DNA of 40,959 bases, from positions 1-40,959 of IMG/VR virus record IMGVR_UViG_3300026130_000011; one strand, 5' to 3'. Under the pieces are notes generated by a model that saw only the letters and a program-made list of their open reading frames with translations, had not been told where the DNA came from and searched no databases. A program made the translations under genes and the position numbers. Position 1 is the stretch's first letter; every line of letters begins with the position of its first letter. This stretch comes from a virus. Shown here piece after piece: positions 3,779-30,785 of this stretch.

Positions 3779-4288
3779 ATGCTACTACCTGATGTGACTT
3801 TTTATATGCGTGAACGTGATGAATCCATTGGCGGTGAAAACCCGTTCAAGTGGGTTTACAAAACAACCAAAGACCTATTTGCTAATAAGAAAGTAGTAAT
3901 CTTTGGACTCCCTGGAGCATTTACCCCTACCTGTTCCAACTCACAGCTTCCTGGCTATGAAGAAATGTACGATGAATTTACAGCAAAGGGTGTAGATGAA
4001 ATCTGGTGTACCTCAGTAAACGATGCGTTTGTTATGTACCAGTGGGGAAAGGCTCAAGGGCTAGATAACGTTAAGCTGCTACCAGATGGCAATGGTGACT
4101 TTGCTGATGGGCTGGGTATGCTTGTGGATAAAACTAATCTTGGGTTCGGTAAGCGCAGCTGGCGTTACGCTATGCTCGTAGAAGATCTAGAAATTAAAAA
4201 CATTTGGCAAGAAGCCGATATTATGGATAACTGTCCAATCGACCCATATGACGTATCTTCGCCTGAATATGTAATTGAACGACTATAA
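3779..4288 (+). CDS. Peroxiredoxin (Prx5-like, AhpC/TSA fold)
   Basis: Peroxiredoxins reduce peroxides using a peroxidatic cysteine. The family motif PGAFTPTCS is present, with the catalytic Cys near residue 52 and the helper Thr three residues earlier. The downstream SVNDAFVMYQWGKAQG and LLPDGNGDFADGLG segments are typical of the Prx5/hybrid-Prx group, as is the 169-residue length. Later in the chain NCPIDPYD contains a second cysteine that could resolve the disulfide, though this is a guess. AGGTG lies just ahead of the ATG at 3779, which is preferred over the GTG at 3770. It sits close to GroES and Hsp20, giving a small stress-protection group. Confidence 0.88.
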   Translation: MLLPDVTFYMRERDESIGGENPFKWVYKTTKDLFANKKVVIFGLPGAFTPTCSNSQLPGYEEMYDEFTAKGVDEIWCTSVNDAFVMYQWGKAQGLDNVKLLPDGNGDFADGLGMLVDKTNLGFGKRSWRYAMLVEDLEIKNIWQEADIMDNCPIDPYDVSSPEYVIERL

Positions 4289-4297
4289 GGAATTATT

Positions 4298-4579
4298 ATG
4301 ACAACTAAAGTAATCCGCTTGACCACTGGTGAAGAAATCATCGCGAAAGTTAATGCTGTTGAGGGTGTTAATCTAAACATTGAATCCCCGCTAATTCTCC
4401 TCCCCACCGAGGACGGAAAGCTGACCTTTGCGACTTGGATCCCGTACATGCGCGATAAGACGCTTGACATTAACTTGAATACTGTTATGTTTATGTTCGA
4501 GCCAGTCACTGAGATGGCTGACCACTACCGTGAAGCCACTACTGGTATCAAGGTTCCGGACAAGAAAATAATTGTATAA
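4298..4579 (+). CDS. Sm-like conserved phage protein
   Basis: This 93-residue protein opens with KVIRLTTGEEIIAKV, which matches a family of small phage proteins with an Sm/LSm-like beta-barrel start, common in T4-like phages of marine bacteria. The middle part has IESPLILLPTEDGK and WIPYMRD. The family function is unknown; RNA binding is possible by fold only. AAGGAATT precedes the ATG, giving a good ribosome-binding site. The gene ends just before the polymerase promoter/terminator region. Confidence 0.75.
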   Translation: MTTKVIRLTTGEEIIAKVNAVEGVNLNIESPLILLPTEDGKLTFATWIPYMRDKTLDINLNTVMFMFEPVTEMADHYREATTGIKVPDKKIIV

Positions 4580-4584
4580 AGTGC

Positions 4585-4613
4585 TTTACTTTTGAACTCA
4601 ATGGGCGTATACT
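4585..4613 (+). promoter_or_regulatory. Early-type promoter for DNA polymerase
   Basis: TTTACT at 4585-4590 (in GCTTTACTT context), a 17-base spacer, and TATACT at 4608-4613. Transcription would start near 4620, about 30 bases ahead of the polymerase start codon. The -10 element lies within the left arm and loop edge of the terminator hairpin at 4603-4628. Confidence 0.75.
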
Positions 4614-4633
4614 TATCGGTATATGCCCTTTTT
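4603..4633 (+). terminator. Terminator hairpin overlapping the polymerase promoter
   Basis: GGGCGTATAC (4603-4612) pairs with GTATATGCCC (4619-4628) over ten base pairs including one G-T, around a six-base loop, followed by TTTTT. It should stop transcripts arriving from upstream. RNA begun at the local promoter starts inside the hairpin and escapes. An alternative role is an autoregulatory RNA operator for gp43, as in T4, but it lies rather far from the ribosome-binding site. Confidence 0.75.
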
Positions 4634-4651
4634 CATTATGGAGATAAAACA

Positions 4652-7186
4652 TTGTCTGAATTTTACACATCAGTTGAACGCTTTGGTAATTCCCTTCTCT
4701 ACCGAGGATACAAGAACGGTCAGCGTGTACAGGATAAGATTAAGTTCAAGCCGACCCTATTTGTCCCAGACGCGAAGTCTAGTACTTTCGCCCTAGATGG
4801 TTGCCCCGTATCTCACGTGAACTTTGACTCTATGCGAGACGCAAAAGAGTTCATGGAGCAGTACCGTGATATGCCTAACTTTAAAGTCTATGGCAATACA
4901 AATTACGTTGTACAGTATATCCAAGAGAAATTCCCAGGCAAGAACATTGCGTTCTCTCGTGAAGATATTGACGTTGCCTCAATCGACATCGAGGTCTACT
5001 CAGCAGATGGGTTTCCGGAACCAGATGAAGCTGCTTATCCTGTAACCGCAATTTGTATGAAATCTTCTAAGGATGACACATATATCGTTTGGGGTACTAA
5101 GGACTATGACTACAGCAAACGTCACGAAGACCTGAAAGACGTGAAGATTGAATACCGCCAGTGTAAAGACGAAGCAACCCTACTTATGCAGTTCGTGTCG
5201 CATTGGTCATCCCCGCTACATTGTCCAGATGTAGTGACTGGTTGGAACACCCGTTTCTTTGATATTCCGTACCTTGTGAACCGTATAGGCAAAGTCCTCG
5301 GTTCAGACATGGTGAAGAAACTAAGTCCATGGGGGTTAGTCAACGAGCGTAATTCTAAGATCAACGGTCGCGATGTACAGCGATACGAGCTCTCTGGTAT
5401 CGCCGAGCTAGACTTCCTAGAACTGTTCAAGAAGTTCACATACTCAGCCCAGGAAAGCTACAAGCTTGACCACATTGCTCACGTAATCCTGGGCGAAAAG
5501 AAACTGAGTTATGAAGAGTTCGGTAACTTGTTCAACCTATACGTCGAAGACCATCAGCTGTTCATTGACTACAACGTCAAGGACGTGCTCCTTGTTCAGC
5601 GACTTGAAGATAAGATGGGCTTGATTACCCTAGCTATGACACTGGCTTATCGCGGTGGCGTGAACTACTCCGAAACGCTCGGGACTACTGGTATTTGGGA
5701 CTCTATCATATACCGAGACCTTCACGACAAAGGCGTTGTCCTTCAGCCCAACGAAGAGAAGTTCAAGACTGAATTTGCGGGTGGTTACGTTAAAGCACCA
5801 AAGGTTGGTCTACATAACTGGGTCGTTTCTTTTGACTTGAACTCTCTGTACCCCCACCTTATCATGCAGGGCAATATGTCTCCCGAGACTATTCATGATG
5901 GTACGATGGGGTCGATCAGCGTAGAAAGCTGCCTCGACAAAGTTGAGATGAACCCAGGAGAGTATGCCGTTGCCCCTAATGGTGCGATGTTCCGGAAGGA
6001 TCAGCGTGGCGTTATCCCTACAATAATCGAAGAGATGTACGCTGAACGTAAAATGGCTAAGAAGGAAATGCTTCGCGCTGAGCAAGAATTGGTTGACCTT
6101 AAACAAACGAGCGGATATACGAAGGATGACGTGTACCAACTCGAGAAAAAGATATCGACTCTGAATAATAAACAGATGGCTATTAAGATCTTGATGAACT
6201 CACTTTATGGCGCATTGGGCAACCGTTACTTCCGTCACTTTGACCTGCGTATGGCGGAGGCGATTACGTTGTACGGTCAGCTGGCTATCAAGTGGGCTGA
6301 AAAGGCATTTAATGGCTTCATGAATAAAGTCGTGGGGACTAAGAATTATGATTATGTCATCGCTATTGATACTGATTCTAACTACGTTGACTTTGGTCCT
6401 CTGGTTGAGAAGCTTGGTTACAAAGACAAACCAGTCAAAGAAACAGTCGCGCTGATCGATAAGATTTGTAAAGATCAGTTTGAACCAATGATTGCGAAGG
6501 CATACAAAGAGCTCGCCGAGTACATGAACGCTTATGAAGATAAGATGGTTATGGAACGTGAGGTAATTGCCGACCGTGGTGTATGGGTAGCCAAGAAACG
6601 TTATATCCTGAACGTTCATAACTCTGAAGGCGTCGAGTACAAAGAACCTAAACTTAAGATGATGGGTATTGAGGCGGTCAAGTCTTCGACCCCAGGGATT
6701 TGTCGCGATGCTATGAAGGAACTATTCAAAGTCATCATGACAGGCTCCGAGAGCAATACTCAGAAGGCGATTGCTCAGTTTAAGGGTTACTTTACGAATC
6801 AGCCGCCAGAGTCTGTAAGCTTCCCTCGAGGCGTCTCTGACGTTATTAAGTGGCGCGATCGTAGTAATATCTACAAGAAGGGCACTCCGATCCACGTTCG
6901 CGGTGCTTTGATGTATAACCATACGCTTGAGCAAAAAGGGTTGAAGGTTTATCCAAAAATACAGAATGGCGATAAGGTCAAGTTCTGTTACTTGAAGAAA
7001 CCAAACCCGATAGGCGAGAACGTTATCTCTTATCCTGATTACTTGCCCGAAGAGCTTCAGCTTCACAAGTATGTGGACTATGAGACGATGTTTAACAAAA
7101 CGTTCCTCGATGCGATTACTCCGATTCTAGATGCGATTGGCTGGTCTGCTGAAGAGCGTGTAAGTATTGAGGATTTCTTTGGATGA
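4652..7186 (+). CDS. 43: DNA polymerase (T4 gp43-like, family B)
   Basis: This 844-residue replicative polymerase has a 3'-5' exonuclease domain (ASIDIEVYS; VTGWNTRFFDIPYLVNRI) and palm motifs SFDLNSLYPHLIMQG, KILMNSLYGALGN and AIDTDSNYVDF. KKRYIL follows in the thumb-proximal region. The protein is complete. No in-frame ATG exists between the promoter and the conserved N-terminus. TTG at 4652 is the best start because GGAG lies eight bases upstream and the product then begins SEFYTSVERFGN, parallel to the T4 start KEFYISIETVGN. Longer starts would lie upstream of the transcription start. The stop overlaps the next ATG. Confidence 0.96.
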   Translation: MSEFYTSVERFGNSLLYRGYKNGQRVQDKIKFKPTLFVPDAKSSTFALDGCPVSHVNFDSMRDAKEFMEQYRDMPNFKVYGNTNYVVQYIQEKFPGKNIAFSREDIDVASIDIEVYSADGFPEPDEAAYPVTAICMKSSKDDTYIVWGTKDYDYSKRHEDLKDVKIEYRQCKDEATLLMQFVSHWSSPLHCPDVVTGWNTRFFDIPYLVNRIGKVLGSDMVKKLSPWGLVNERNSKINGRDVQRYELSGIAELDFLELFKKFTYSAQESYKLDHIAHVILGEKKLSYEEFGNLFNLYVEDHQLFIDYNVKDVLLVQRLEDKMGLITLAMTLAYRGGVNYSETLGTTGIWDSIIYRDLHDKGVVLQPNEEKFKTEFAGGYVKAPKVGLHNWVVSFDLNSLYPHLIMQGNMSPETIHDGTMGSISVESCLDKVEMNPGEYAVAPNGAMFRKDQRGVIPTIIEEMYAERKMAKKEMLRAEQELVDLKQTSGYTKDDVYQLEKKISTLNNKQMAIKILMNSLYGALGNRYFRHFDLRMAEAITLYGQLAIKWAEKAFNGFMNKVVGTKNYDYVIAIDTDSNYVDFGPLVEKLGYKDKPVKETVALIDKICKDQFEPMIAKAYKELAEYMNAYEDKMVMEREVIADRGVWVAKKRYILNVHNSEGVEYKEPKLKMMGIEAVKSSTPGICRDAMKELFKVIMTGSESNTQKAIAQFKGYFTNQPPESVSFPRGVSDVIKWRDRSNIYKKGTPIHVRGALMYNHTLEQKGLKVYPKIQNGDKVKFCYLKKPNPIGENVISYPDYLPEELQLHKYVDYETMFNKTFLDAITPILDAIGWSAEERVSIEDFFG

Positions 7187-10757: not shown

Positions 10758-12206
10758 ATGGAAAAAGTTACAATTAACGGTCGGCAATGGCAAAAGTATA
10801 TCGGTGACGAAGGGCAAGATGTTTATGTTGCCCTCTTCGTTGAAGACCAAGAGAACCTCATCGGCAAATACGCTGATGAGGATTCATTCGATATTCTCAT
10901 TGACAAAGACGCTGACTTTTATCTACCGCCATCGTGTGATGTAGTCGCTTCTACTGACTGCGATAAGCAATGTATCAACTGTATAGGTGAAGACCGTGTT
11001 GCGTTCAAATTCCGTAAGAACGTATTCACGCAGGAAGAACAAGACGGTGCTTATGCTGGTCTTTACAGCGCTGCTGCTGAGTCTAACAACCGTGGTATGG
11101 CTGCTGGTCCTCGAGCCGAAACAAGTCAGGGTCGCGAATGGGTTACTCCGTTCCAGCGCGATATCCTGGACTTCTTTGCTAAGGGTTCTCCGCAGAACGT
11201 TATGGGTACTGACCCAGTTGAGGACATTATCAAGAAACATGAAACCAAGCAGTACGAAACACGTGGCGAAGTTTGGTTGGTTCAAAAGGTCGAGAAAGAA
11301 TATGAGGATTACCGCAATTTCTTTGATCAGTGCCTAGCCAAACTCCGTTCCCTTCCGGTAGATGAAGCTCGGGAATATGCTATACACGTTCGCGATACGA
11401 TGATCAGCGGAACTTCCTACGCTACTCCGCTGTGGTCCGGAATCACTGGCTTCTATGGACGCTACCCTCGTATCCCTTATGGTCGTGCTACTAGCCATGT
11501 AGAGCATAACCGAGAAGACTTTGAGAAGTGCTACCCGTTTGCCCGTAAACTCGACCAAGAGTTTGCTCGCTTACTTCCGCAGCGTTATGCGTACCAAAAA
11601 AGATGTGCTGACAGTATCGACCCTAAATTCTTGATTGGCGAGGATACTACCTTTACGACCGTTACAGTCAATACAACTCAGTCTGACCGAAATGCTCGTA
11701 TGGCTTGTCATAAGGATGCTGGTTCATTAAATGAGGGTTTCTCTAACCTTACTGTAATTGCTCCGAAAGGTAAATCATGGAAGGGCGGATACCTTACTGC
11801 TCCGGAAGTTCGCGCAGCTATTGATGTTCGACCAGGAGATCTACTCCTTATTGATAATATGCGAATAATTCACGGCAATCAGCCTATTGAAGCCCCTGAC
11901 TCTGGCGAAGAAGACCTACTTCGTATGTCCCTTGTTTTCTACTTCCGTGAGGATATGTTACAACTAGGTTCTTGGGATTATGAGGCGCTGCGTCGTAAGT
12001 TTGTTGACGATCGTCGAACCAACAAAGAACATCCGTTATGGAAAGAGCGTTGGAATGGCGTGAGTCCTGGTTTTATGAACGATAATTCAGAAGAATGGTA
12101 TCAATACCTTTTAGAACATGGAGGCGAAGAGTTGATGAAAGAAAACCAACCAGGGTTATGGGATCATTTCAACAACTCTAATGATTTAGAATCATTTTTC
12201 TCTTAG
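10758..12206 (+). CDS. TET/JBP-type 2-oxoglutarate/Fe(II) dioxygenase (predicted thymine or methylcytosine hydroxylase)
   Basis: The C-terminal third of this 482-residue protein carries the double-stranded beta-helix pattern of TET/JBP enzymes. FTTVTVN leads into HKDAGSLNEGF (iron-binding His-x-Asp), GGYLTAPE, DVRPGDLLLIDN, IIHGNQPI (distal His) and LRMSLVFYFRE (2-oxoglutarate-binding Arg). The N-terminal 280 residues are unassigned and include a CDKQCINC cysteine cluster and an ITGFYGRYPRIPYGRA block. Such enzymes hydroxylate the methyl group of thymine or 5-methylcytosine in DNA. No cytosine methyltransferase is seen here, and a hydroxymethyluracil-DNA kinase lies downstream, so thymine is the likelier substrate. 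AGGA lies ten bases ahead of the ATG. The gene overlaps tail-to-tail with the antisense HNH gene. Confidence 0.72.
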   Translation: MEKVTINGRQWQKYIGDEGQDVYVALFVEDQENLIGKYADEDSFDILIDKDADFYLPPSCDVVASTDCDKQCINCIGEDRVAFKFRKNVFTQEEQDGAYAGLYSAAAESNNRGMAAGPRAETSQGREWVTPFQRDILDFFAKGSPQNVMGTDPVEDIIKKHETKQYETRGEVWLVQKVEKEYEDYRNFFDQCLAKLRSLPVDEAREYAIHVRDTMISGTSYATPLWSGITGFYGRYPRIPYGRATSHVEHNREDFEKCYPFARKLDQEFARLLPQRYAYQKRCADSIDPKFLIGEDTTFTTVTVNTTQSDRNARMACHKDAGSLNEGFSNLTVIAPKGKSWKGGYLTAPEVRAAIDVRPGDLLLIDNMRIIHGNQPIEAPDSGEEDLLRMSLVFYFREDMLQLGSWDYEALRRKFVDDRRTNKEHPLWKERWNGVSPGFMNDNSEEWYQYLLEHGGEELMKENQPGLWDHFNNSNDLESFFS

Positions 12207-12932
12207 GGTTTTACAATTGTCGAAGTGGTATCTATTCATGTTACCTTTGTGTTTGGATACCACTCCGCAATGAGGGCAAGTTATATCTTCTCTGCTGTTG
12301 AAAGTTCCTCTATATTTCTGTATTCGGGCTAAACGTTTATCTTTGTCATTATAGAAATCTTTCATAGATTGCTTGTGTGTTTCCCTAGCTTCTTCTGTGT
12401 GCATATGATGGTAGTTTAATTTACCGCTTTCTGAAAATTTATCCCTTGCTTCTTCAGATAGGTTTTTATTTGATAATCTTTGTTTTCTTGTCTCTTCGTC
12501 GTAGGCAGCCCAACCCATTTTAGATTTAGATTCTTCATTGTGAGTTTTGCCGAAGAATGGATTATTCTCTCCGGACATCCTTTTAGAATGTAGAGAATTT
12601 TTCCTACTGACATAAGATTCGTACAATTTAGAGTTTATATCTTTTCTAAAGAACTTGACTGCCGAATACGATTGCGATAATACATCAGGAAACGCTTTAG
12701 CGAGTATTAAGTGGGCTAACCTATGCGCCCTAGTTGGGAGCAATATTTTGTTCCAAGGGTTTTCCACTAAGTTTGTGTATTCTGGGAACATATCCTTAGC
12801 CTTTGGACATATGTGGTGCTTCTCGCCTTCGGTAGAGTCATTGTAAGCCTCTATTAACCGAATGTATCTTGACATGTAATGTTTGTTGTGAGGTTTTGAT
12901 GCTAATATTGAATAAATAAGTTTGCTGTCCAT
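12192..12932 (-). CDS. HNH homing endonuclease (NUMOD3, C-terminal zinc finger)
   Basis: This 246-residue protein is encoded against the direction of all its neighbours. It has an HNH core (EGEKHHICPKAKDMFPEY, then PWNKILLPTRAHRLAHLIL) and a NUMOD3 DNA-binding module (NPFFGKTHNEESKSKM). Repeated NUMOD-like helices follow, then a C-terminal zinc finger (CPHCGVVSKHKGN ending in DNC). It is a free-standing homing endonuclease of the T4 mob/seg kind. AAGGAGAAAG lies just ahead of its ATG on the minus strand. A late-type TATAAATA lies 69-76 bases upstream. Its 3' end overlaps the dioxygenase gene by 15 bases. It splits the modification island in two. Confidence 0.9.
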   Translation of the reverse strand: MDSKLIYSILASKPHNKHYMSRYIRLIEAYNDSTEGEKHHICPKAKDMFPEYTNLVENPWNKILLPTRAHRLAHLILAKAFPDVLSQSYSAVKFFRKDINSKLYESYVSRKNSLHSKRMSGENNPFFGKTHNEESKSKMGWAAYDEETRKQRLSNKNLSEEARDKFSESGKLNYHHMHTEEARETHKQSMKDFYNDKDKRLARIQKYRGTFNSREDITCPHCGVVSKHKGNMNRYHFDNCKTLREK

Positions 12933-12960
12933 TTACTTTCTCCTTAAGTTGTAGTATAAT
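12932..12960 (+). promoter_or_regulatory. Early promoter for the amidotransferase/amidoligase genes
   Basis: TTTACT at 12932-12937, exactly 17 bases, and TATAAT at 12955-12960. On the other strand the same bases hold the ribosome-binding site of the HNH gene, so the two control elements are superimposed. Confidence 0.8.
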
Positions 12961-12972
12961 AACGGATAGAGT

Positions 12973-13037
12973 GGTTGGGGCGACCCGCGAACCATACCTT
13001 TATTTATAATTTTGCGATTTTCAGGGGTTAGCCCTGA
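12973..13037 (+). other. Structured 5' leader of the amidotransferase gene
   Basis: Two stem-loops lie between the promoter and the start codon. The first is GGTTGGG (12973-12979) with CCC and AACC up to 12993, which pairs with a small bulge. The second is a perfect TCAGGG / CCCTGA hairpin (13021-13037) with a five-base loop. Neither is followed by a T-run. The roughly 95-base leader is long for this phage. Confidence 0.45.
13001..13008 (-). promoter_or_regulatory. Candidate late promoter for the HNH endonuclease
   Basis: The + strand reads TATTTATA, giving TATAAATA on the minus strand 69-76 bases upstream of the HNH start codon. This would make the homing endonuclease a late, separately controlled gene. 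Confidence 0.6.
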
Positions 13038-13062
13038 CATGTGGTTTGGAGGATTTCTTTTA

Positions 13063-13677
13063 ATGTGCGCAGTAATGGGATTTGAATTAAAAAACGTAAC
13101 AAGAGATGATATAAGTGCTATCCGCACCCTATTCTTTGAATCACAAATCCGAGGGAGGCACGCTACTGGCGTGTCTTTCCTAAAAGAGGGTAAGATACAT
13201 ACGATAAAGGAAGCTGTTGAGGCATCTGAATTTATAAAACATCATCCACCAATCGACTGGGTTGACGAGAACGGTAACATAACAGCTATCGCTCATTGTC
13301 GGTACAGTACTTCTGACTTGCGTTTTAATCAACCTATTGCTGACGAAAAGTTATCTGTTGTTCATAACGGTGTTATTTCGCAAGAACTTCCGGAGAATTG
13401 GTATAGACTCTATGGAATCAAATGCGAAACCGCTAACGACACCGAACTTCTTTTCCATCGCCCTTCTTTAAATGAGTGGGCAAATTCTTCAATTTCCGCT
13501 TTACTTTTGACAGTAAATGGAATAGAATATATGCGTAATGGTAAAAGACCATTATGGTGTGCTGACATTGAACACGGTCGTATATTTGCTTCGACTTCTG
13601 ACATTATAAGTAGAAGTCAATTCAAAACTAAATCAAAAAACCGAGTTAGTTTTGCTGGTATAGACTTACAACCATAG
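13063..13677 (+). CDS. Class II glutamine amidotransferase (Ntn-type glutaminase)
   Basis: This 204-residue protein starts MCAVMGF, which places a cysteine directly after the initiator Met as the N-terminal nucleophile of class II glutaminases. The fold signatures follow: RGRHATGVSF, AHCRYSTSDLRFNQPI and VVHNGVISQ, then a NDTELLFH segment. Such domains release ammonia from glutamine for a partner synthetase. It stands alone here, without an asparagine-synthetase or GlmS domain, and is followed eight bases later by an amidoligase, the natural candidate partner. The ATG at 13063 is eight bases after GGAGGATT; the earlier in-frame ATG would hide the nucleophile. Confidence 0.88.
   Translation: MCAVMGFELKNVTRDDISAIRTLFFESQIRGRHATGVSFLKEGKIHTIKEAVEASEFIKHHPPIDWVDENGNITAIAHCRYSTSDLRFNQPIADEKLSVVHNGVISQELPENWYRLYGIKCETANDTELLFHRPSLNEWANSSISALLLTVNGIEYMRNGKRPLWCADIEHGRIFASTSDIISRSQFKTKSKNRVSFAGIDLQP
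13500..13528 (+). promoter_or_regulatory. Weak candidate internal promoter
   Basis: GCTTTACTT at 13498-13506 places TTTACT at 13500-13505. A 17-base spacer leads to TAGAAT at 13523-13528, inside the amidotransferase gene. The imperfect -10 makes this uncertain. Confidence 0.3.
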
Positions 13678-13685
13678 GATACATT

Positions 13686-14558
13686 ATGTACAATAAAGAT
13701 GATTTTACTTGGGGCTACGAGATTGAGTGGGGCGATATTGACCGTCGCCTAGAGATTCCGGAGCATCTAGGTTCTTGGGAATATTCAGAGACTGACGTAG
13801 TAAACCTGCGTCCACCATACAAATACGTTGCTTGTGATCCGCTCGGCGAAGACCCTCCGTTCGGGGGAGAGGTCAATACTAAACCGACCAAAACCTGGGA
13901 AGAACAGGTAGATCGAATCCAAGAGATTAAACAGTGGTTTACTGATCAGGGATGCGAGCCTACTTCAAACTGCCTAAGCCATTCGCATCTACACGTGTAT
14001 GTGCCTGAGCTAACTAAAGATCTAGATGCCCTTAAGCGTTTGATCAAATACATTAAAGCGAACCAAGCTGACGTTGTAGAGAACTGCGGTCTATTCCATG
14101 AAGCGGCTTCCATGAAGAAAGCGAAAGGCGCTACCATGTATATGAAATATGACGGTGGACGCCAGATGCCTGATTACATGGCTGACAATATTATTAATCT
14201 GGCTAAAGACTTTGATCACTTCATCAAGCTCCATGCTGCTGGCAAGGACGGTGTTTCGATGGGTCGCCCTTTCCGTTACGCGATTAACACCTACTGCCTA
14301 AAACATACTGGAACAATCGAGTTTCGGTGTTTTCGGGCTACCACAGAACGTAAGCATATGGAATCTATGTTCCGTTTCGTTGAGGCGTTTATTGATGCTG
14401 CCCTAAACGATGGTCCGAGCGTTAAAGAAATTTTGGCTGATGGCGACTATGAGTTTCCGCCATTCCAGTGGGACTTGAATCAGTGGATAGGGCACCAAAA
14501 GACAAAGTGGGACAAAGACCGTGGCAAAAAACAGCGAGCATACATTGAAGTTGCGTAG
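13686..14558 (+). CDS. Amidoligase (COOH-NH2 ligase, glutamine-synthetase-like fold)
   Basis: This 290-residue protein matches the amidoligase_2 family: TWGYEIEWGD at the N-terminus (acidic metal/ATP site), FGGEVNTKPT (second acidic motif), HSHLHVYVPE (histidine pair), and the C-terminal GTIEFRCFRAT. Family members join a carboxylate to an amine using ATP and are known in phage and bacterial clusters with glutamine amidotransferases and acetyltransferases. Here it sits between exactly those two genes. The acceptor could be an amino acid attached to DNA, a free metabolite or a protein; the modification-island context favours the first. It overlaps the GNAT gene by 38 bases. Confidence 0.8.
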   Translation: MYNKDDFTWGYEIEWGDIDRRLEIPEHLGSWEYSETDVVNLRPPYKYVACDPLGEDPPFGGEVNTKPTKTWEEQVDRIQEIKQWFTDQGCEPTSNCLSHSHLHVYVPELTKDLDALKRLIKYIKANQADVVENCGLFHEAASMKKAKGATMYMKYDGGRQMPDYMADNIINLAKDFDHFIKLHAAGKDGVSMGRPFRYAINTYCLKHTGTIEFRCFRATTERKHMESMFRFVEAFIDAALNDGPSVKEILADGDYEFPPFQWDLNQWIGHQKTKWDKDRGKKQRAYIEVA

Positions 14559-15078
14559 CACGACAGCGGAGGAGTTTACCTCCGCTATATCTGATGACCC
14601 TGCGGATAAGTTCGCCAATACCTTTATTGCGAAGGCGAACATGCAGGGGTTATGGGATAAGTGTATAGGGTTATGGGATGGCGACCAGCTTGCTGGCGCT
14701 ATCATAACGACTGTGTCTAAACGTTCACCAAAAGTAGCAAACCTACAACTCCTCCATACGTTTGCGGCTCATAGGGGTAAGGGTGTTGCCCGAATCCTTT
14801 GCGAAGATTCTCTTGAGCGAGTAAAGGGGCAGGCGACATACTTCCGTGTGTCCTCTGAAATCCCTGCTATTAAGTTCTACGAGAAGATCGGCTTTACTTT
14901 CCAAGGTAAACAGAAAAGTGGCTGCCAGCTATCTATCTTCCGCATAAACAATACTTTCGCTGATAGCTATTATCAGCTAGACGATCCTGTCATCTACTCC
15001 GCAGTACACAAGAAAGGCAAAGGCGGTTGCGTCGAAGTCTTTCTTGAATCACCAAAAGGGTTAGAAGATTTCTTCTGA
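14521..15078 (+). CDS. GNAT-family N-acetyltransferase
   Basis: The GNAT core is visible: KVANLQLLHTFAAHRGKGVA gives strand 4 plus the acetyl-CoA pyrophosphate-binding loop (R/Q-x2-G-x-G/A form HRGKGVA). FRVSSEIPAIKFYEKIGF is the strand 5/helix 4 signature. Length is 185 residues from the GTG at 14521. That start overlaps the amidoligase gene and has only a weak ribosome-binding site, and a TTG at 14545 is an alternative, so the N-terminus is uncertain. Acetyltransferases are among the known tailoring enzymes of thymidine hypermodification, which fits its place in the island. The C-terminal extension (YQLDDPVIYSAVHKKGKGG) is unassigned. Confidence 0.85.
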   Translation: MAKNSEHTLKLRSTTAEEFTSAISDDPADKFANTFIAKANMQGLWDKCIGLWDGDQLAGAIITTVSKRSPKVANLQLLHTFAAHRGKGVARILCEDSLERVKGQATYFRVSSEIPAIKFYEKIGFTFQGKQKSGCQLSIFRINNTFADSYYQLDDPVIYSAVHKKGKGGCVEVFLESPKGLEDFF

Positions 15079-15084
15079 TCCTTA

Positions 15085-15137
15085 TTCCTATTTGATATAA
15101 TAATTTCCTTTACTTTTATCCCAGATCCACCTATAAT
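15085..15137 (+). promoter_or_regulatory. Early promoter for the GIY-YIG/ParB gene
   Basis: TTTACT at 15109-15114, 17 bases, and TATAAT at 15132-15137. The upstream stretch TATTCCTATTTGATATAATA resembles the upstream elements at 7695 and 39138. The start codon at 15167 follows GATCGAGGA. Confidence 0.8.
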
Positions 15138-15166
15138 TACCTTGTATTGAGATCGAGGACTATATC

Positions 15167-16474
15167 ATGGCTAAAAAAAATCAAGCGTTCGTATACGGTT
15201 GGAATAATATTCAGAACAAAAAGAAATACGTAGGATTTCGTAAGAGTAGCGAAATCAACGACGGCTACAAATTTTCATCAGAAGACAAAGAGCTTAAAAG
15301 GGATTGGTCAAGAGGTTTACTACACAGGTCAATCCTTTTTGTAGGTACACCCGAAGAAGCTATAAAATACGAAAGCAAACTACTACACCACTTTAACGCA
15401 CGCACCAACGGGCAGTTTTACAACAAGTCAAACGGAGGCGGAGTAGGTTGTAAAGGTTGGGAGGAACTTTCAGAGAGCGTAATTCAGGGAGGAATAGATT
15501 GGGTTGAGAAGGGTATAGAGCCAATCACAGAATCAAAAGACACTTACGATGTAATCGATACAAAACTAGTTAATCGGATTTGGAAAAACTGCCAAGAGGG
15601 GAAATACCAAGTAGTTGAAACTAATATTGAGGAAATTCGTAAATTTGATCACAACCAGGTTCGTTTAGTATTATTAGACCCGAAACACGTACAAGCTATT
15701 GCGGAGAAGATGGAAGACGACCCAGCAGAGGCTCGTACTAACGTTTCTCCAATTATAGTTTGCGTCAGCCCAGACGGTACACGAACTATACTAGACGGAA
15801 ACCACACTTCCAGGGCAGTAGATGTAGCTAATTGGCAATCAGCGCCAGTTATATACTTAAATTCTTCGGAGTTTAATGATAGCCAGTCGAATATGGATAA
15901 GTTTGGTAACGTTGCTAATCACAACCCTAAATTGAAGAAACCAAATAGTTCACGTGATTGCCAGAGAGCTATCACAAACTTATGGGCGAACAACTTTAGG
16001 GATAATGACCCAAACCTTGAGATCCTACAAAGTGAAAAATTTAAAAACACTTGTTTAGAAGTTTTTTACCCACTTTGGTCGCTAAGGGAGATCGCTTCTA
16101 ACTACAGTAAAGCAGTCATTAACGTAAAAACAGATAAGGCGACAGCTGACCTTAACTTTATTAAATACAGTTCAAAGGAGCTTGACGCTATCGCTAAATC
16201 TGTTAGAGACCGCAACCCTGATTTGGCAGTGATTACGGTATCTTCTGGCGCTTGTTACAACTCTGGTATTGGTGGGGTTCTTAACAAGATGGGCGGTATG
16301 GATAATTGGAATGGAATGCTTATTATTCACCACGGCAACATTAATGAATACGAGCTTTGGACGGAATCTGAAGCCAAGCTACATAAAGCTTTAAAACGTG
16401 TTCACCCCGATTGCGATATAAAGATTCGAATTCTTAAAGCATTCGAGACGAAACAAAAACGAGTAAATCTTTAA
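15167..16474 (+). CDS. GIY-YIG-like nuclease fused to a ParB/sulfiredoxin-like domain
   Basis: This 435-residue protein has two recognisable parts. Residues 1-90 look like a GIY-YIG nuclease: FVYGWNN, NKKKYVGFRKSS, a later EEAIKYESKLLHHFNA with the candidate catalytic Glu, and FYNKSNGGG. Residues 165-245 carry a ParB-like fold: VRLVLLDPKHVQAIAEKM, then PIIVCVSPDGTRTILDGNHTSRAV. The DGNHTSRA motif recalls the DGQHR variants seen in DNA-modification proteins. The C-terminal 190 residues are unassigned. ParB-like proteins recur next to the modification kinase/transferase pair in phages, and a fused nuclease could act on unmodified DNA, but this is inference. The next gene's ATG overlaps its stop. 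Confidence 0.68.
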   Translation: MAKKNQAFVYGWNNIQNKKKYVGFRKSSEINDGYKFSSEDKELKRDWSRGLLHRSILFVGTPEEAIKYESKLLHHFNARTNGQFYNKSNGGGVGCKGWEELSESVIQGGIDWVEKGIEPITESKDTYDVIDTKLVNRIWKNCQEGKYQVVETNIEEIRKFDHNQVRLVLLDPKHVQAIAEKMEDDPAEARTNVSPIIVCVSPDGTRTILDGNHTSRAVDVANWQSAPVIYLNSSEFNDSQSNMDKFGNVANHNPKLKKPNSSRDCQRAITNLWANNFRDNDPNLEILQSEKFKNTCLEVFYPLWSLREIASNYSKAVINVKTDKATADLNFIKYSSKELDAIAKSVRDRNPDLAVITVSSGACYNSGIGGVLNKMGGMDNWNGMLIIHHGNINEYELWTESEAKLHKALKRVHPDCDIKIRILKAFETKQKRVNL

Positions 16475-17487
16475 TGAACTATAACGAAAACCGAAGAGAG
16501 GCTTTCATTAAGTGGTATGCGTGGTCCTTGGAATTCAAGGACTGCGACCCCGCTGTTTGGATGACCAATTACCTTAATGATAGATTTGAACATAACTCAG
16601 AGCAGCGTATCTGGCTGTCTTGGTTGTATGGCAATACATACTACCTACCAACCGCTTGGGTTCTTATTAATGAGTTCCCTGACTTTGAGTTGGCTACCTA
16701 TGACCGAATGAACCAATGGAACACGGAGAACTATAAACGTCTCCGCTACCAAACGGACACAAAATGGTCTAAGGGACACTTAGCCGATATGTTCAAATCC
16801 TATCATGCTTTCGTTGGAGATAAAACCCAGCGCGAAGTATTTGAGCAGTATATGGGGGATAACGAAGAACAAAATTTCGATAAACTATATGAAGTCGTCA
16901 AAGATAAGTTCTACAAGTTCGGACGCTATTCTACTTGGTTCTTTCTACAGCACCTAAATCATACCGCCAATATCCCAAACGTACCAGATAGTTTATTGCT
17001 AGATGACTTTAGCGGTTCTCGCTCTCATCGTAATGGCTTATTGCTGGCGCTCGGTAAGGATGATCAGTACGATGTACGTCAGACTATTGGGGAATATGCT
17101 TGGCTCGAAGCAGAAGCAAAAAGTATAATGGAAGAGATGAAAAGTCGCTTCCCACACTTGACTTCTGAGATAAATCCGTTTACAATGGAAACCTGTCTCT
17201 GTTCATTTAAGAAGATATTCCGAGTGCGTCATGGCAGATACTTGGGGTATTACAATGACAGGGTCGCAGAGGAGATCTCTAAGGTTGAATCTGATGGTTG
17301 GTATGGTATTGAGTGGCGTGTACTTTGGGACGCTCGTAGAGAAACTCTTGATGCTAGGCTGTATGATTCAAACGTTATCCAAAAGGGTAAGATGGCTGAG
17401 TTCGTTGAAACTAATAATATTGACCGACTAGACTGGATGTTCAAAGAAGACGAACCAGTCTCAATGGGTCTTGATGCTTTTATGTGA
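16474..17487 (+). CDS. Amino acid:DNA transferase (aGPT-pyrophosphorylase family)
   Basis: This 337-residue protein resembles the alpha-glutamyl/putrescinyl thymine pyrophosphorylases. These displace pyrophosphate from 5-pyrophosphorylmethyl-uracil in DNA with an amino acid or amine. Landmarks are RIWLSWLYGNTYYLPTAWV, NEFPDFE, RLRYQTDTKWSKGHLADM, RYSTWFFLQHLNH, and the LDDFSGSRSHRNGLLLALG block. The last three motifs carry the polar residues I would expect in an active site. Its immediate partner downstream is the predicted 5-hydroxymethyluracil kinase, as in known hypermodification clusters. The added group cannot be predicted from the sequence. Confidence 0.8.
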   Translation: MNYNENRREAFIKWYAWSLEFKDCDPAVWMTNYLNDRFEHNSEQRIWLSWLYGNTYYLPTAWVLINEFPDFELATYDRMNQWNTENYKRLRYQTDTKWSKGHLADMFKSYHAFVGDKTQREVFEQYMGDNEEQNFDKLYEVVKDKFYKFGRYSTWFFLQHLNHTANIPNVPDSLLLDDFSGSRSHRNGLLLALGKDDQYDVRQTIGEYAWLEAEAKSIMEEMKSRFPHLTSEINPFTMETCLCSFKKIFRVRHGRYLGYYNDRVAEEISKVESDGWYGIEWRVLWDARRETLDARLYDSNVIQKGKMAEFVETNNIDRLDWMFKEDEPVSMGLDAFM

Positions 17488-17494
17488 GGATATT

Positions 17495-18040
17495 ATGAAA
17501 CTAATTTATTTGATTGGCGTGCCAGGAACAGGTAAGTCTACAATCATGAAAGAATTTATGAGCAGATTCGATGGGTGGAAAACCGACCGTCCGATTGACC
17601 TGCTAGACACGCACGTGAGCGGGAACGTGCGCGTGCTCGGGAAATACGAAGAAGGCGAAACGTTCTCAGGGACAGACCGTTTGTCTATGGCTGTCGCGCC
17701 AAAAGCAATTGAATACTTTACTTCTAACCCAGAAGAGGTTATAATAGGTGAAGGTGATAGATTGAATAACAAAGGCGTTTTTGAATCTGTTGAAGATAAA
17801 GTCATAATCCATCTAACGGTCTCGGATAAAGAACGTCAACGTCGATACGATGAACGTGGCTCGGAGCAGAGTGATAAGTTCATCCAAACAGTAGCAACTA
17901 AATGTAAAAATATAGTAGAGGCTTTCGGCGATCAGCAAACCCTATTCGGCGAAGAAGAGGGATGTATTGTTGAGTTCAAACACGAGACTCCTGAGGATAC
18001 GCAAAAAGTCGTGGAGTATATGATGTCATGTATTCGCTAA
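17495..18040 (+). CDS. P-loop 5-hydroxymethyluracil-DNA kinase (predicted)
   Basis: This 181-residue P-loop kinase has Walker A GVPGTGKST at residues 8-16. It then has VRVLGKYEEGETFSGTDRLS, which matches the G-x-Y...GTDRLSM signature of phage kinases that pyrophosphorylate 5-hydroxymethyluracil bases in DNA. EVIIGEGDRL is the Walker B-like acid region, and RQRRYDERG an arginine-rich lid. It would activate the base for the adjacent transferase. A generic nucleotide kinase is less likely given the GTDRLSM motif and the neighbour. GAGGA is five bases ahead of the ATG at 17495. It overlaps the primase-like gene by 13 bases and contains an exact early-promoter match at 17717. Confidence 0.78.
   Translation: MKLIYLIGVPGTGKSTIMKEFMSRFDGWKTDRPIDLLDTHVSGNVRVLGKYEEGETFSGTDRLSMAVAPKAIEYFTSNPEEVIIGEGDRLNNKGVFESVEDKVIIHLTVSDKERQRRYDERGSEQSDKFIQTVATKCKNIVEAFGDQQTLFGEEEGCIVEFKHETPEDTQKVVEYMMSCIR
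17717..17745 (+). promoter_or_regulatory. Candidate internal early promoter inside the kinase gene
   Basis: TTTACT at 17717-17722, exactly 17 bases, and TATAAT at 17740-17745. It could give the primase, deaminase and downstream genes expression independent of the modification island. Confidence 0.5.
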
Positions 18041-22183: not shown

Positions 22184-22873
22184 ATGAAAAGTTATAATGA
22201 AATAGCTAGTGCCCGTCTTGTTAGCTACTCTCAGGCGACTGAAGAGTTTAAGGACATGGGGGTTGATGGTGTTCAAGAATTGATCGCTTATTGTGCAAGG
22301 GTTTCTAATCCAAAGAATCAAGTAAACAATGAGACAGCAGAAAAGTTGATCAATTATTTGATTAAACACTCTCACTGGTCACCGTTAGAAGTCGTGAGCG
22401 CAAACATTGAGATTGTGACTACACGCGATATTGCTCGTCAGATTCTACGCCACCGCTCGTTCTCTTTCCAAGAGTTCAGTCAGCGTTATGCCGATCCTTT
22501 CGAGCAGTTTGATGAAGCGTTCTGTTATCGTGAAGCGCGTATGCAGGACGAGGTGAATCGTCAGAACTCAGTCGTATCTGACGACCCTAAGATTCAGGAA
22601 GAATGGATGCGTATTCAACAGCGTGTACTAAACTTTGTTAAGAAAGAGTACGGATATGCGCGTGAACTTGGTATCGCTAAGGAACAACGTAGAGCCTTGC
22701 TGCCTGAAGGTAATACCCTCTCATACCTTTACATGAACGGCACTATCCGCAGCTGGATTCACTTCATTCAGTTGAGGGCTGGCAACGGTACTCAGAAAGA
22801 ACATCAGATGATCGCAATTGAGTGCGCAAAGGCAATCAACAAGATCTTCCCCTATGCGGCAAAATTAATTTAA
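22184..22873 (+). CDS. thyX: Flavin-dependent thymidylate synthase ThyX
   Basis: ThyX makes dTMP from dUMP using methylenetetrahydrofolate, FAD and NADPH. The signature RHRSFSFQEFSQRY matches the ThyX motif RHR-x7-S-x-R-Y. HSHWSPLEVV and the C-terminal SLP-like REQRRALLPEGNT region (read as EQRRALLPEGNT) with NGTIRSWIHFIQLR complete the family pattern. Length (229) is normal. In the context of the modification island it shows that ordinary thymidylate, rather than hydroxymethyl-dUMP, is made by the enzyme visible here. Confidence 0.95.
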   Translation: MKSYNEIASARLVSYSQATEEFKDMGVDGVQELIAYCARVSNPKNQVNNETAEKLINYLIKHSHWSPLEVVSANIEIVTTRDIARQILRHRSFSFQEFSQRYADPFEQFDEAFCYREARMQDEVNRQNSVVSDDPKIQEEWMRIQQRVLNFVKKEYGYARELGIAKEQRRALLPEGNTLSYLYMNGTIRSWIHFIQLRAGNGTQKEHQMIAIECAKAINKIFPYAAKLI

Positions 22874-25692: not shown

Positions 25693-27155
25693 TGAAAGGC
25701 TTCACTCAGTTCCTAAACGAGACTATAATTAAAAAGGATGGTAAGTATCGTCTGGTGTCAAAGTCAGGTAAGAACCTTGGTGAATTTGATACTAGAGATG
25801 AAGCCGAGGAGCGCGAGCGCGAGATTCAATACTTTAAAAGTAAAAATGAAGAGCATGGCGCAGGCGAAGAAGGCACACCGGAATTATTAAGGAAGTATAA
25901 AAAAGATACCCCAATGGAAGGTTTCGATGCTTTCAGTTCTTTACTCACCGAAGAAAAGAACACCCATATGACGCACATCGAAGATCAGGTTATCTATGGT
26001 GGTGTTAACGGAGCGCGGGAAGCCATCCTAGCTCTCAGGTCCCTCCGCGATATGCTCGCAGGTAATAGTAAAGGATCGACTGACGTAACTGTTAAATGGG
26101 ATGGCGCTCCTGCCGTTTTCTGTGGTATAGACCCTGAAGACGGTAAATTCTTTGTGGCAAAGAAAGGTATCTTTAATAAGAACCCGAAAGTCTATAAAAC
26201 TAAACAGGATATCTACGACGACATAGATAATGCAGAGTTGGCTCAGAAGATGCTTGTTTCTCTTGAAGAGCTATCTAAACTAGGAATTAAAGGCGTTGTT
26301 CAAGGTGACATCATGTTTACTGACGACGTCAAGGAAGAGACAATTGACGGCGAAAAATATCTTACTTTTCATCCTAATACTATTGTGTACGCTGTACCTA
26401 GTGAATCAGAAGCCGCTCGGAGTATTCGTAAAGCCAAAATCGGTGTCGTGTTCCATACAGCCTACAATGGGTCTTCCTTCGCCGACATGCGAGCGAGTTA
26501 TGGAGTAGACGTAAGTAAGTTCAAATCAGTTCCTACAGTATGGGCGGAAAGTGCTACGTTGAAAGACTTATCGGGCACTGTAACTCTAACGCAAAAAGAT
26601 ACAAAAGAAGTTACTGATGCGCTGTCAACCGCAGGTAAGATTTTCTCGCGAATATCTGGTTCTACGTTAAGAGAACTAGAAGCTCATCCTGATTTACCAC
26701 GTTTGATTGAGACTTATAATAACTCCTTTGTACGCAAGGGTGAAGTCATCAAGGATACCAGAAATCACGTTGAAGGTTTGATCAAATTCATTGAAGAACG
26801 TTACGCAAAAGAAATTGATAAGCGCAAGTCTGAGAAAGGTAAGCAGGCTCAACGAGACAAGTTGGACACTATCCTTGAATTTTTTAATCGTAAAAACAAG
26901 CCATCTTTGGTCCAGATTTTTGAATTACAGAAGGCTATCGTCAACGCCAAGATGATAGTTATTAAGAAACTAAATAAGCTAAATAATATAAATACTTTTG
27001 TTAAGACCAAGAATGGCTTTAAGGTTACTGGCGCAGAAGGGTTTGTTGCTATAGACCATATGAAAGGTGGAGCGGTTAAGCTCGTCGATCGTATGGAGTT
27101 TTCAATGAACAACTTTGATCCAGATATTGTGAAAGGTTTTGATAAGGTTCGGTAG
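25692..27155 (+). CDS. Nucleotidyltransferase/ligase-like virion protein (KWDG motif)
   Basis: This 487-residue protein has a covalent nucleotidyltransferase motif I, VKWDGAPAVF, with Lys near residue 135. FFVAKKGIF, KGVVQGDIMF and KIGVVFHTAY could be motifs III, IIIa and IV. It is related to a conserved phage family of unknown function (possibly DUF6267); RNA or DNA ligase activity is not established. The N-terminus carries the leader MKGFTQFLNE and a recurrent module (GKYRLVSKSGKNLGEFDTRD). A second L-x-E site (SSLLTEE) lies near residue 86, before the catalytic domain. This suggests an enzyme packaged in the head and freed by proteolysis. Confidence 0.7.
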   Translation: MKGFTQFLNETIIKKDGKYRLVSKSGKNLGEFDTRDEAEEREREIQYFKSKNEEHGAGEEGTPELLRKYKKDTPMEGFDAFSSLLTEEKNTHMTHIEDQVIYGGVNGAREAILALRSLRDMLAGNSKGSTDVTVKWDGAPAVFCGIDPEDGKFFVAKKGIFNKNPKVYKTKQDIYDDIDNAELAQKMLVSLEELSKLGIKGVVQGDIMFTDDVKEETIDGEKYLTFHPNTIVYAVPSESEAARSIRKAKIGVVFHTAYNGSSFADMRASYGVDVSKFKSVPTVWAESATLKDLSGTVTLTQKDTKEVTDALSTAGKIFSRISGSTLRELEAHPDLPRLIETYNNSFVRKGEVIKDTRNHVEGLIKFIEERYAKEIDKRKSEKGKQAQRDKLDTILEFFNRKNKPSLVQIFELQKAIVNAKMIVIKKLNKLNNINTFVKTKNGFKVTGAEGFVAIDHMKGGAVKLVDRMEFSMNNFDPDIVKGFDKVR

Positions 27156-27180
27156 TTAATAACTTAGAGATTGAAGTTAT

Positions 27181-27188
27181 TATAAATA
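27181..27188 (+). promoter_or_regulatory. Late promoter upstream of a GIY-YIG endonuclease
   Basis: TATAAATA in the 65-base intergenic region before 27221. A second TATAAATA at 26987-26994 lies inside the preceding gene and is less convincing. Confidence 0.6.
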
Positions 27189-27220
27189 CTTGTATAGGCT
27201 AACAAATACAGGTATTGGAT

Positions 27221-27913
27221 ATGAGAACTTATGTTTACTGGATAAGAAGGGAAGCCCATACTGACATAGCCTCCGAAGGGTATGTCGGTATAACAAAAGA
27301 CTTATTGGAAAGAATCAGGCAGCACAAGAAAAAGGCGAGTAATTTACACCTAGAAAACGCCTTAAATAAATATGATGACATAATCGTTGAGTGCTACGCT
27401 ATTTGCCCTGATAGGGAAACAGCAAAGAATATCGAGAAGTCTTTGCGACCTTCCCCTAAAATAGGTTGGAACGAGGCACCTGGAGGAGATATACCGCCTC
27501 CAGTTAAAGGTAATAAGAAAGTCATAGAGAAAATAAGAAATTCTATTTTGGCTCTTGGTACTGTACCTTACTGCGAAAATACTCATAGCCCAGAAGCTAT
27601 AGAGAAAAGGTTAGAGGCTAGAAGGAAGTCAAAGCCAATGTGGTTCCACAACCCAGATACCCTTGAGTATAGGTTGATAAAAACCGCATATGAAGACGTT
27701 CCGGAAGGTTGGGTTCGAGGGAGAAAACCAAAGGTTGTTCGCGAACCCAAAGAAAGAACTGGCAACAGCGCAAAATGGATTGTTAATGATGGGGAAGTGG
27801 ATCACCAAGTTTTCAATTTGAAACAATGGTGTAGAGATAATAATATCCCCTATCTTGGGGAAAAGCCTTATAATAGTTGGAAAAATTATAAGGCTACAAA
27901 GGTGAAGAAATAG
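27221..27913 (+). CDS. GIY-YIG homing endonuclease
   Basis: This 230-residue protein has the GIY-YIG pattern: TYVYWIRRE, EGYVGITKDLLERIRQHKK, then LENALNKYDDIIVE and the catalytic-Glu helix (RETAKNIEKSLRP). IGWNEAPGG gives the conserved Asn. SPEAIEKRLEARRKSKPMW and KWIVNDGEVDHQVFNLKQW resemble NUMOD-type DNA-binding segments. It is a free-standing mobile gene inserted into the head-protein block. I chose the ATG at 27221; the TTG at 27215 is less likely. Its own late promoter and flanking gaps set it apart from neighbours that are packed head to tail. Confidence 0.85.
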   Translation: MRTYVYWIRREAHTDIASEGYVGITKDLLERIRQHKKKASNLHLENALNKYDDIIVECYAICPDRETAKNIEKSLRPSPKIGWNEAPGGDIPPPVKGNKKVIEKIRNSILALGTVPYCENTHSPEAIEKRLEARRKSKPMWFHNPDTLEYRLIKTAYEDVPEGWVRGRKPKVVREPKERTGNSAKWIVNDGEVDHQVFNLKQWCRDNNIPYLGEKPYNSWKNYKATKVKK

Positions 27914-30511: not shown

Positions 30512-30512
30512 G

Positions 30513-30785
30513 ATGAAGAAACCATCAGGTCTACGTAACGCCATCGCAAAACGCGATGGCTACTACTCACCAAAGGGTGAGAAACTTAAAGGCGCTTCTC
30601 TAAGCCAAGCAGAAGTCGATGCTTGGAATGGCGTAAAAGAAGAAGCTGCTCCGGCTCCTGTAGTTAAAGAAGTTGTGGTCGAAGAAGCTGCTCCGTCAGT
30701 CGAAGATGACATTGCCATCGAAATTACTAAATCTGAAACAGTACTAGATAAAGTATTCAAAAAGGTTTCTCGTAAGAAGAAATAA
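30513..30785 (+). CDS. Small Ala/Glu-rich hypothetical protein
   Basis: This 90-residue protein has a basic N-terminus (LRNAIAKRDGYYSPKGEKL), an Ala/Pro/Glu-rich middle (KEEAAPAPVVKEVVVEEAAP) and a lysine-rich C-terminus (KKVSRKKK). The middle is low-complexity and probably disordered. It lies one base after the preceding modular protein and is likely a late virion-associated or core peptide. No function can be assigned. Confidence 0.65.
   Translation: MKKPSGLRNAIAKRDGYYSPKGEKLKGASLSQAEVDAWNGVKEEAAPAPVVKEVVVEEAAPSVEDDIAIEITKSETVLDKVFKKVSRKKK

Follow-up and report, generated by a model that had tools for sequence, protein, structure and literature searches.

We report on a stretch of 40,959 bases from the IMG/VR virus record IMGVR_UViG_3300026130_000011 (the window in what follows), a fragment of the genome of a marine T4-related phage, in which seven genes on the plus strand form an island for the modification of DNA. 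In our estimate it is likely that this island hypermodifies thymine by means of enzymes docked on the sliding clamp of the replication machinery, with a TET/JBP-type dioxygenase (TET) predicted to supply the modified base on which a kinase and an amino acid:DNA transferase (ADDT) would build. What the sequences give directly is the identity of the genes, their co-inheritance, the exchange of modules behind TET, the lack of other sources of 5-hydroxymethyluracil (5hmU) or 5-methylcytosine (5mC) in the records, and C-terminal tails that match the phage lineage. The features concerned are the following.

10758..12206, plus strand: TET/JBP-type 2-oxoglutarate-Fe(II) dioxygenase, 482 amino acids (PF12851, E=1.3e-12); predicted to hydroxylate the 5-methyl group of thymine in DNA
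12183..12203, plus strand: C-terminal tail of TET, DLESFFS, polymerase-like; predicted sliding-clamp-binding peptide
12192..12932, minus strand: HNH/NUMOD3 homing endonuclease (PF07460, E=1.8e-8; phrog_655, E=5e-26); probable intruder
13063..13677, plus strand: class II glutamine amidotransferase domain alone, with MC start (PF13522); predicted ammonia source
13686..14558, plus strand: amidoligase (carboxylate-amine ligase) with a YbdK/GCS/glutamine-synthetase fold, by AlphaFold model
14521..15078, plus strand: GNAT acyltransferase (PF13673, E=8.1e-11)
15058..15075, plus strand: C-terminal tail of GNAT, GLEDFF
15167..16474, plus strand: fusion of a GIY-YIG nuclease domain and a ParB/sulfiredoxin-fold domain, 435 amino acids (phrog_314, E=3e-11; fold)
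16474..17487, plus strand: ADDT, 337 amino acids (PF18724, E=9e-22; phrog_3271)
17467..17484, plus strand: C-terminal tail of ADDT, GLDAFM
17495..18040, plus strand: P-loop base kinase, predicted 5hmU-DNA kinase (PF18751, E=3.9e-17; phrog_800)
22184..22873, plus strand: ThyX thymidylate synthase (PF02511), making ordinary deoxythymidine monophosphate; outside the island
7163..7183, plus strand: C-terminal tail of DNA polymerase (gene 4592-7186), SIEDFFG; reference clamp-binding peptide

Besides the polymerase, the T4-related neighbours in the window include a clamp loader, RegA, DnaB- and RecA-type proteins and NrdAB. An initial annotation, made from the letters alone, had placed the seven plus-strand genes exactly where we find them, and had read them as a thymine hypermodification island with TET, a kinase and an amino acid:DNA transferase; profiles and conserved residues bear this out, though the minus-strand HNH/NUMOD3 gene had been overlooked, as had the replacement of this module by glycosyltransferases in other loci and the polymerase-type tails, both described below. 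Probable start positions are 13063 for the glutaminase, where Cys2 would become the N-terminal nucleophile, and 17495 for the kinase. Matches for TET, the glutaminase, GNAT, ADDT and the kinase all exceed the curated Pfam cut-offs. TET scores 47.7 bits against PF12851 (cut-off 34.9), and H318, D320, H372 and R389 are invariant in 23 homologues; among solved structures its closest relative was clavaminate synthase (E=0.007), with no phage TET among them. ADDT reaches 78.4 bits against PF18724 (cut-off 26.2) and shares 13 invariant columns with the enzymes of the phages ViI and Cr30, with which it falls into phrog_3271, while the ADDTs of M6 and W-14 belong to phrog_6364; a search of solved structures found no relative. 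In one related locus (L081:11278-12417) a phrog_3650 protein lies between TET and ADDT and looks by eye like an enzyme dependent on pyridoxal phosphate (PLP), with no Pfam hit; M6 likewise has such a protein beside its ADDT.

The profile searches proposed in the initial annotation thus confirmed TET and ADDT, but they put the kinase outside the families that had been expected. It matches PF18751 (Ploopntkinase3) and shows no match, up to E=0.1, to the two families of characterised 5-hydroxymethyl-deoxyuridine DNA kinases, HMUD1/HMUD2 (PF18748, PF18747); M6 gp54 matches PF18748 and ViI Vi01_196 matches PF18747. Nevertheless, neither the kinase nor the 337-residue ADDT belongs to an unrelated family. 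The kinase and M6 gp54 both sit in phrog_800, and their profiles align over 123 columns (hhalign probability 95.5, E 1.5e-8); its Walker A, GTD and EGDR motifs are invariant, and this homology to gp54, with the Walker A, GxDR and EG motifs, places it in the broadly defined 5-hydroxymethyl-deoxyuridine DNA kinase superfamily. A host or defence origin of the island was considered and rejected, since a search of 85,000 bacterial and archaeal genomes gave a single distant match to the kinase. The cultured Caulobacter phage Cr30 (NC_025422, 51788-60681; locus L084) also encodes a TAGT-like protein; its kinase is annotated as terminase small subunit and its ADDT as hypothetical.

That the island is not a chance assembly follows from the fact that the same genes are found together in dozens of viral contigs. 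We examined 83 loci around relatives of TET or ADDT, phage C48C1 among them, and used the 51 untruncated TET loci with enough flank for counts of co-occurrence. ADDT is present in 36 of these and is accompanied by the kinase in 34, the two remaining loci (L043, L057) ending shortly after ADDT. The same 36 loci contain GNAT in 34 cases, the glutaminase in 31, the amidoligase in 15 and the GIY-YIG/ParB protein in 12. In the 15 TET loci that lack ADDT, no kinase, glutaminase, GNAT, amidoligase or GIY-YIG/ParB protein was found in any; all have a glycosyltransferase behind TET, which is TAGT (PF20691) in 12 and another glycosyltransferase in L058, L059 and L001, the last recognised by eye with no Pfam hit. 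Gene order varies, many loci reading GATase-GNAT-ADDT-TET-kinase. On the TET tree, the ADDT and glycosyltransferase modules require nine changes, barely fewer than with shuffled labels; well supported branches make seven of the nine unavoidable. Judged by these counts and this tree, TET is the constant partner of two tailoring modules that appear to be interchangeable. Such repeated exchange implies that both modules probably act on the same product of TET, a 5-hydroxymethyl pyrimidine.

Behind the TET of C48C1 (L001, 21401-23433) lie a putative glycosyltransferase, without a Pfam hit, and, by eye, a protein like UDP-galactopyranose mutase, so that this phage perhaps places a furanose-type sugar on the base.

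Which pyrimidine TET acts upon is suggested by what its neighbours could provide. C5-cytosine methyltransferases (PF00145) were found in none of 50 records, including records of 99-156 kb, and control genomes gave matches. Likewise, enzymes of the dUMP/dCMP (deoxyuridine/deoxycytidine monophosphate) hydroxymethylase type (PF00303) were found in none of 26 TET-phage records, namely 25 metagenomic ones, partly fragments, and C48C1; ThyX is encoded in 11 of the 26, the window included. The situation is reversed in ViI, M6, W-14 and Vibrio phage D506, the last of which carries the same kinds of genes as the other three: all have a divergent PF00303 enzyme and none has TET. Cr30 has a normal thymidylate synthase (E=4e-113) alongside its TET, ADDT and PF18751-like kinase. 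Since sources of both 5mC and 5-hydroxymethyl-dUMP are absent from the records, TET is predicted to act on thymine in DNA, and 5hmU is probably made within DNA by TET from thymine supplied by ThyX.

A second line of evidence concerns the C-termini. TET, GNAT and ADDT of the window end in an acidic/hydrophobic motif resembling that of the polymerase and also those of T4 polymerase gp43 (SLDFLFG) and gp55 (SLDFLYEAND). The codons for these ends differ (TTTTTC, TTCTTC, TTCTTT and TTTATG), which places the likeness at the level of the protein. The tails of 12 polymerases, and no others, went into a matrix that was run on 1,403 open reading frames from 61 protein families; at a 99.9% null threshold, the only families besides polymerase in which more than half of the tails pass were TET (93%) and TAGT (88%), followed by GNAT (47%) and ADDT (33%). 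A looser pattern, applied without counting polymerase or the late sigma factor gp55, was positive in five of nine modification families as compared to one of 50 others (p=1.4e-4).

Furthermore, the tails change together with the polymerase. ViI has VNLLSMM on its polymerase, VSLLGLM on its kinase, VNLMSLL on its ADDT and VNLLDRL on its HMUDK_hel protein, and LIMEstone is similar; in D506 the same four proteins end in ARKLW, TKKLW, TRKLW and TKRLW. The tails are KLGAFF and GLGSFF in W-14 (type LGxFF), DLSSLF and DLSKLF in Cr30 (type DLSxLF), and of type L[DE]xFF in others. LIMEstone and D506 had been chosen for their top-ranking ADDT matches, at a point when their tails had not yet been seen. 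Permuting the polymerases among eight phages gave p=5e-5, the floor of the test. When open reading frames other than polymerase were ranked in six phage genomes by their match to the tail of their own polymerase, 11 of the 14 enzymes that modify DNA in situ came among the top five (0.3 expected, p<1e-5), and the dUMP hydroxymethylase of D506, which is a nucleotide enzyme, ranked 56th and has no tail. DLP6 AAY80_028, chosen by its tail, turned out to be a previously unannotated TAGT, and the tail also singled out the helical-domain (HMUDK_hel) proteins of ViI and D506.

In T4/RB69, gp43, gp55 and gp33 bind the clamp gp45 through interchangeable C-termini (PMC2988020), and an LDFL motif is found in T4-type clamp-binding C-termini (PMC9690074). 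T4 alpha-glucosyltransferase also binds gp45 (PMC13216743). The tails suggest that TET, GNAT and ADDT travel with the replication machinery and act on DNA while it is being copied. More generally, we think there is a good case that, in phages with a clamp of their own, TET, ADDT, hmU kinases, TAGTs and some methyltransferases bear a polymerase-type clamp tail that coevolves with the polymerase, and that hypermodification there would be docked to the replisome.

Similar tails were seen on further proteins. C48C1 encodes a D12-class adenine methyltransferase (3883-4767) ending in TLDAFFG, resembling the polymerase of this phage, and W-14 has the LGxFF type on a PD-(D/E)XK nuclease (26496-27356) and on a DUF4326 protein (81170-81487). 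Small proteins of 99 and 70 amino acids in D506 (55591-55890) and ViI (30355-30567), each with the tail type of its own polymerase, are candidate gp33-like coactivators or previously unrecognised clamp clients.

With respect to the tailoring genes, the glutaminase matches GATase_6 (PF13522, E=4.4e-10) and has an intact class II site (N-terminal Cys, R, N-G, D), with C2, R80, N102, G103 and D126 invariant in 17 homologues. Its closest solved relatives are PurF-type amidophosphoribosyltransferases, a weak match (E=1e-5). The glutaminases of these islands share a conserved C-terminal DLQ (13660-13677 in the window), which differs from the polymerase tail. For the amidoligase, the profile search did not reach the cut-off (PF12224, E=0.01). 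Its AlphaFold model (predicted local distance difference test, pLDDT, 85.6; predicted template modelling score, pTM, 0.86) resembles YbdK, glutamate-cysteine ligase (GCS) and glutamine synthetase (GS) with Z of 9.4-10.9, and by this modelled fold the protein is assigned to the YbdK/GCS/GS superfamily. The model of the GIY-YIG/ParB protein matches I-TevI with residues 5-90 (Z 7.0) and ParB/KorB with residues of about 146-330 (Z 10.6); Y21, G23, E69 and N86 of the GIY-YIG domain are invariant in 10 homologues. We considered and rejected the idea that this gene is a mere homing intruder, because in 12 of the 15 islands with an amidoligase it holds its position between GNAT and ADDT, its GIY-YIG residues intact, unlike the HNH gene.

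The way in which the island may work can be pictured as follows. ThyX would provide ordinary thymine, to be polymerised normally, and TET would oxidise its 5-methyl group in finished or nascent DNA to yield 5hmU. The PF18751 kinase would phosphorylate or pyrophosphorylate the hydroxymethyl group, and ADDT would swap the pyrophosphate for an amine, either an amino acid or ammonia that the glutaminase sets free. GNAT would acylate an amine, and the amidoligase, in the subset of islands that possess it, would make a further amide. With TET, GNAT and ADDT docked on the phage sliding clamp by their polymerase-type tails, the duplex would be modified behind the fork. The order of these reactions, the nucleophile, the final base and the binding to the clamp are what we infer from the sequences.

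Several points weigh against clamp-docked thymine hypermodification. Related contigs are not independent observations. The window is only a 40.9-kb fragment, and a C5-methyltransferase or hydroxymethylase could sit elsewhere in the genome; larger relatives, up to 154 kb, are also without either, and a host methyltransferase could be the supplier of 5mC. About 360 mycobacteriophages have PF18751 kinases, with an ADDT in far fewer, and their annotation there reads adenylate kinase or terminase small subunit; because the family is so common there, PF18751 alone is no proof of 5hmU-DNA kinase activity, and the predicted role is based on tight pairing with ADDT and not on family membership. As to the tails, the kinase, glutaminase and amidoligase of the window lack them, as do TET, ADDT and the kinase of Cr30. 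In addition, T4 beta-glucosyltransferase does not bind gp45, and T4 glucosylation levels are mostly governed by promoter strength and not by clamp binding (PMC13216743). If the target were cytosine, TET would turn 5mC made by a host or unseen methyltransferase into 5-hydroxymethylcytosine, to be hypermodified by the kinase and ADDT. The phage TET enzymes so far characterised do act on 5mC, and TAGT partners are also found with hydroxymethylcytosine, to go by the name of phrog_842. Yet the 50 records, some of them 120-156 kb, contain no C5-methyltransferase although the controls worked, the 26 contain no PF00303 dCMP hydroxymethylase, and ADDT and the kinase superfamily are known from thymine pathways only (PMC6449724); we regard a cytosine target as unlikely. 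Short hydrophobic ends may also arise by chance, and the DLQ of the glutaminase shows that a different end can be conserved, which might mean that the shared tails are a coincidence or some other sorting signal instead of clamp-binding peptides. This is hard to reconcile with their covariation with the polymerase across several tail types that are unrelated to one another, among them the KLW of D506, with the same tail on the known clamp binder gp55, and with its absence from the TETs of the small phages HTVC112P and P12024L and from ADDT and the kinase of M6, and we hold it to be very improbable.

Within clamp-docked thymine hypermodification, two chemistries at the ADDT step carry equal weight for us, and each is put forward tentatively. 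ADDT might use ammonia from the glutaminase, in a PurF-like manner, to give 5-aminomethyluracil, which GNAT would acylate and to which the amidoligase would add an acid in some phages. The distribution of the glutaminase speaks for this: it occurs in 31 of 36 ADDT loci, and about half of those 31 have no amidoligase, while the glycosyltransferase loci never contain it. It accompanies short ADDTs even where the amidoligase is missing, and it is absent with the long ADDT of ViI/Cr30 type, that is from the ViI-like loci L046, L047, L061 and L081, and also from L050 and Cr30 (L056 lacks it as well, but this locus begins just upstream of ADDT). In its nearest solved relatives, the PurF enzymes, ammonia displaces pyrophosphate, as it would here; that match is weak, however, a channel or complex is hypothetical, and the ViI enzyme, which takes an amino acid, falls into phrog_3271 together with the short ADDTs. 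The latter grouping, with ViI and not with M6/W-14, favours instead the possibility that ADDT links an amino acid via its side chain, as ViI does with serine; GNAT would then have an amine to act on, and amidoligase and glutaminase would convert the free carboxylate into an amide. GNAT, amidoligase and glutaminase would suit two such free groups, and a Pfam search found no PLP decarboxylase in the island, but the glutaminase is then unexplained in the many loci without amidoligase.

The general kind of modification, thymine hypermodification, is already known. In ViI, M6 and phiW-14 there is likewise a PF18724 ADDT together with a kinase of the same wider group, and the base is modified after incorporation. 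Of the ViI/M6-type route that the initial annotation drew on, ADDT and the kinase superfamily stand; the source of 5hmU is predicted to differ, as the island has TET/JBP and ThyX where those phages have a dUMP hydroxymethylase. Its kinase is of PF18751 and not of PF18747/PF18748 as in ViI and M6, and it has glutaminase, GNAT, amidoligase and GIY-YIG/ParB genes in place of the PLP or radical-SAM (S-adenosylmethionine) tailoring of ViI, M6 and phiW-14. Phage TET + TAGT systems share the TET family, the genomic slot and, on TAGT, the tail, but their tailoring is glycosyl transfer instead of kinase and ADDT; known systems of this sort act on 5mC with a C5-methyltransferase. In the base J pathway of kinetoplastids, JBP1/2, which are TET/JBP enzymes, oxidise thymine to 5hmU in situ; this pathway glucosylates 5hmU, whereas the island probably phosphorylates and aminates it. 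Iyer et al. 2013 reportedly foresaw TET-based hypermodification variants. T4 alpha-glucosyltransferase is comparable as a DNA-modifying enzyme on the replication clamp (PMC13216743), but its C-terminus, EQFDIITK, is not of polymerase type, whereas in the island several unrelated enzymes share the tail. Finally, the CmoX/CmoY carboxymethylcytosine pathway of phage S-B43 also employs an amide ligase on a DNA base, with a ParB-domain protein nearby; its chemistry is on cytosine, and its ligase forms AMP (adenosine monophosphate), in contrast to the glutamine-synthetase fold of the island ligase (PMC12783734). As far as can be told, what is new is that ADDT and glycosyl modules replace one another behind TET, other sources of 5hmU and 5mC being excluded in the records, and that the tails match the polymerase.

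If this is true, phages would have a second route to 5hmU-derived thymine, in which TET oxidises the base in place, as opposed to the synthesis of a modified nucleotide, and cassettes are swapped behind a constant TET. Docking on the sliding clamp would then explain how phage DNA can be modified at sufficient speed, and the tail would provide a sequence handle for discovering new DNA-modifying enzymes. Any benefit from clamp docking is presumptive, given that T4 alpha-glucosyltransferase binds gp45 without this tail and that the level of glucosylation in T4 was not set by binding to the clamp (PMC13216743).

Two further genes of the window deserve mention. The HNH/NUMOD3 gene stands tail to tail with TET, in the gap between TET and the glutaminase that is empty in most relatives. 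A second, free-standing GIY-YIG protein is encoded at 27215-27913 (PF01541, E=1e-9).

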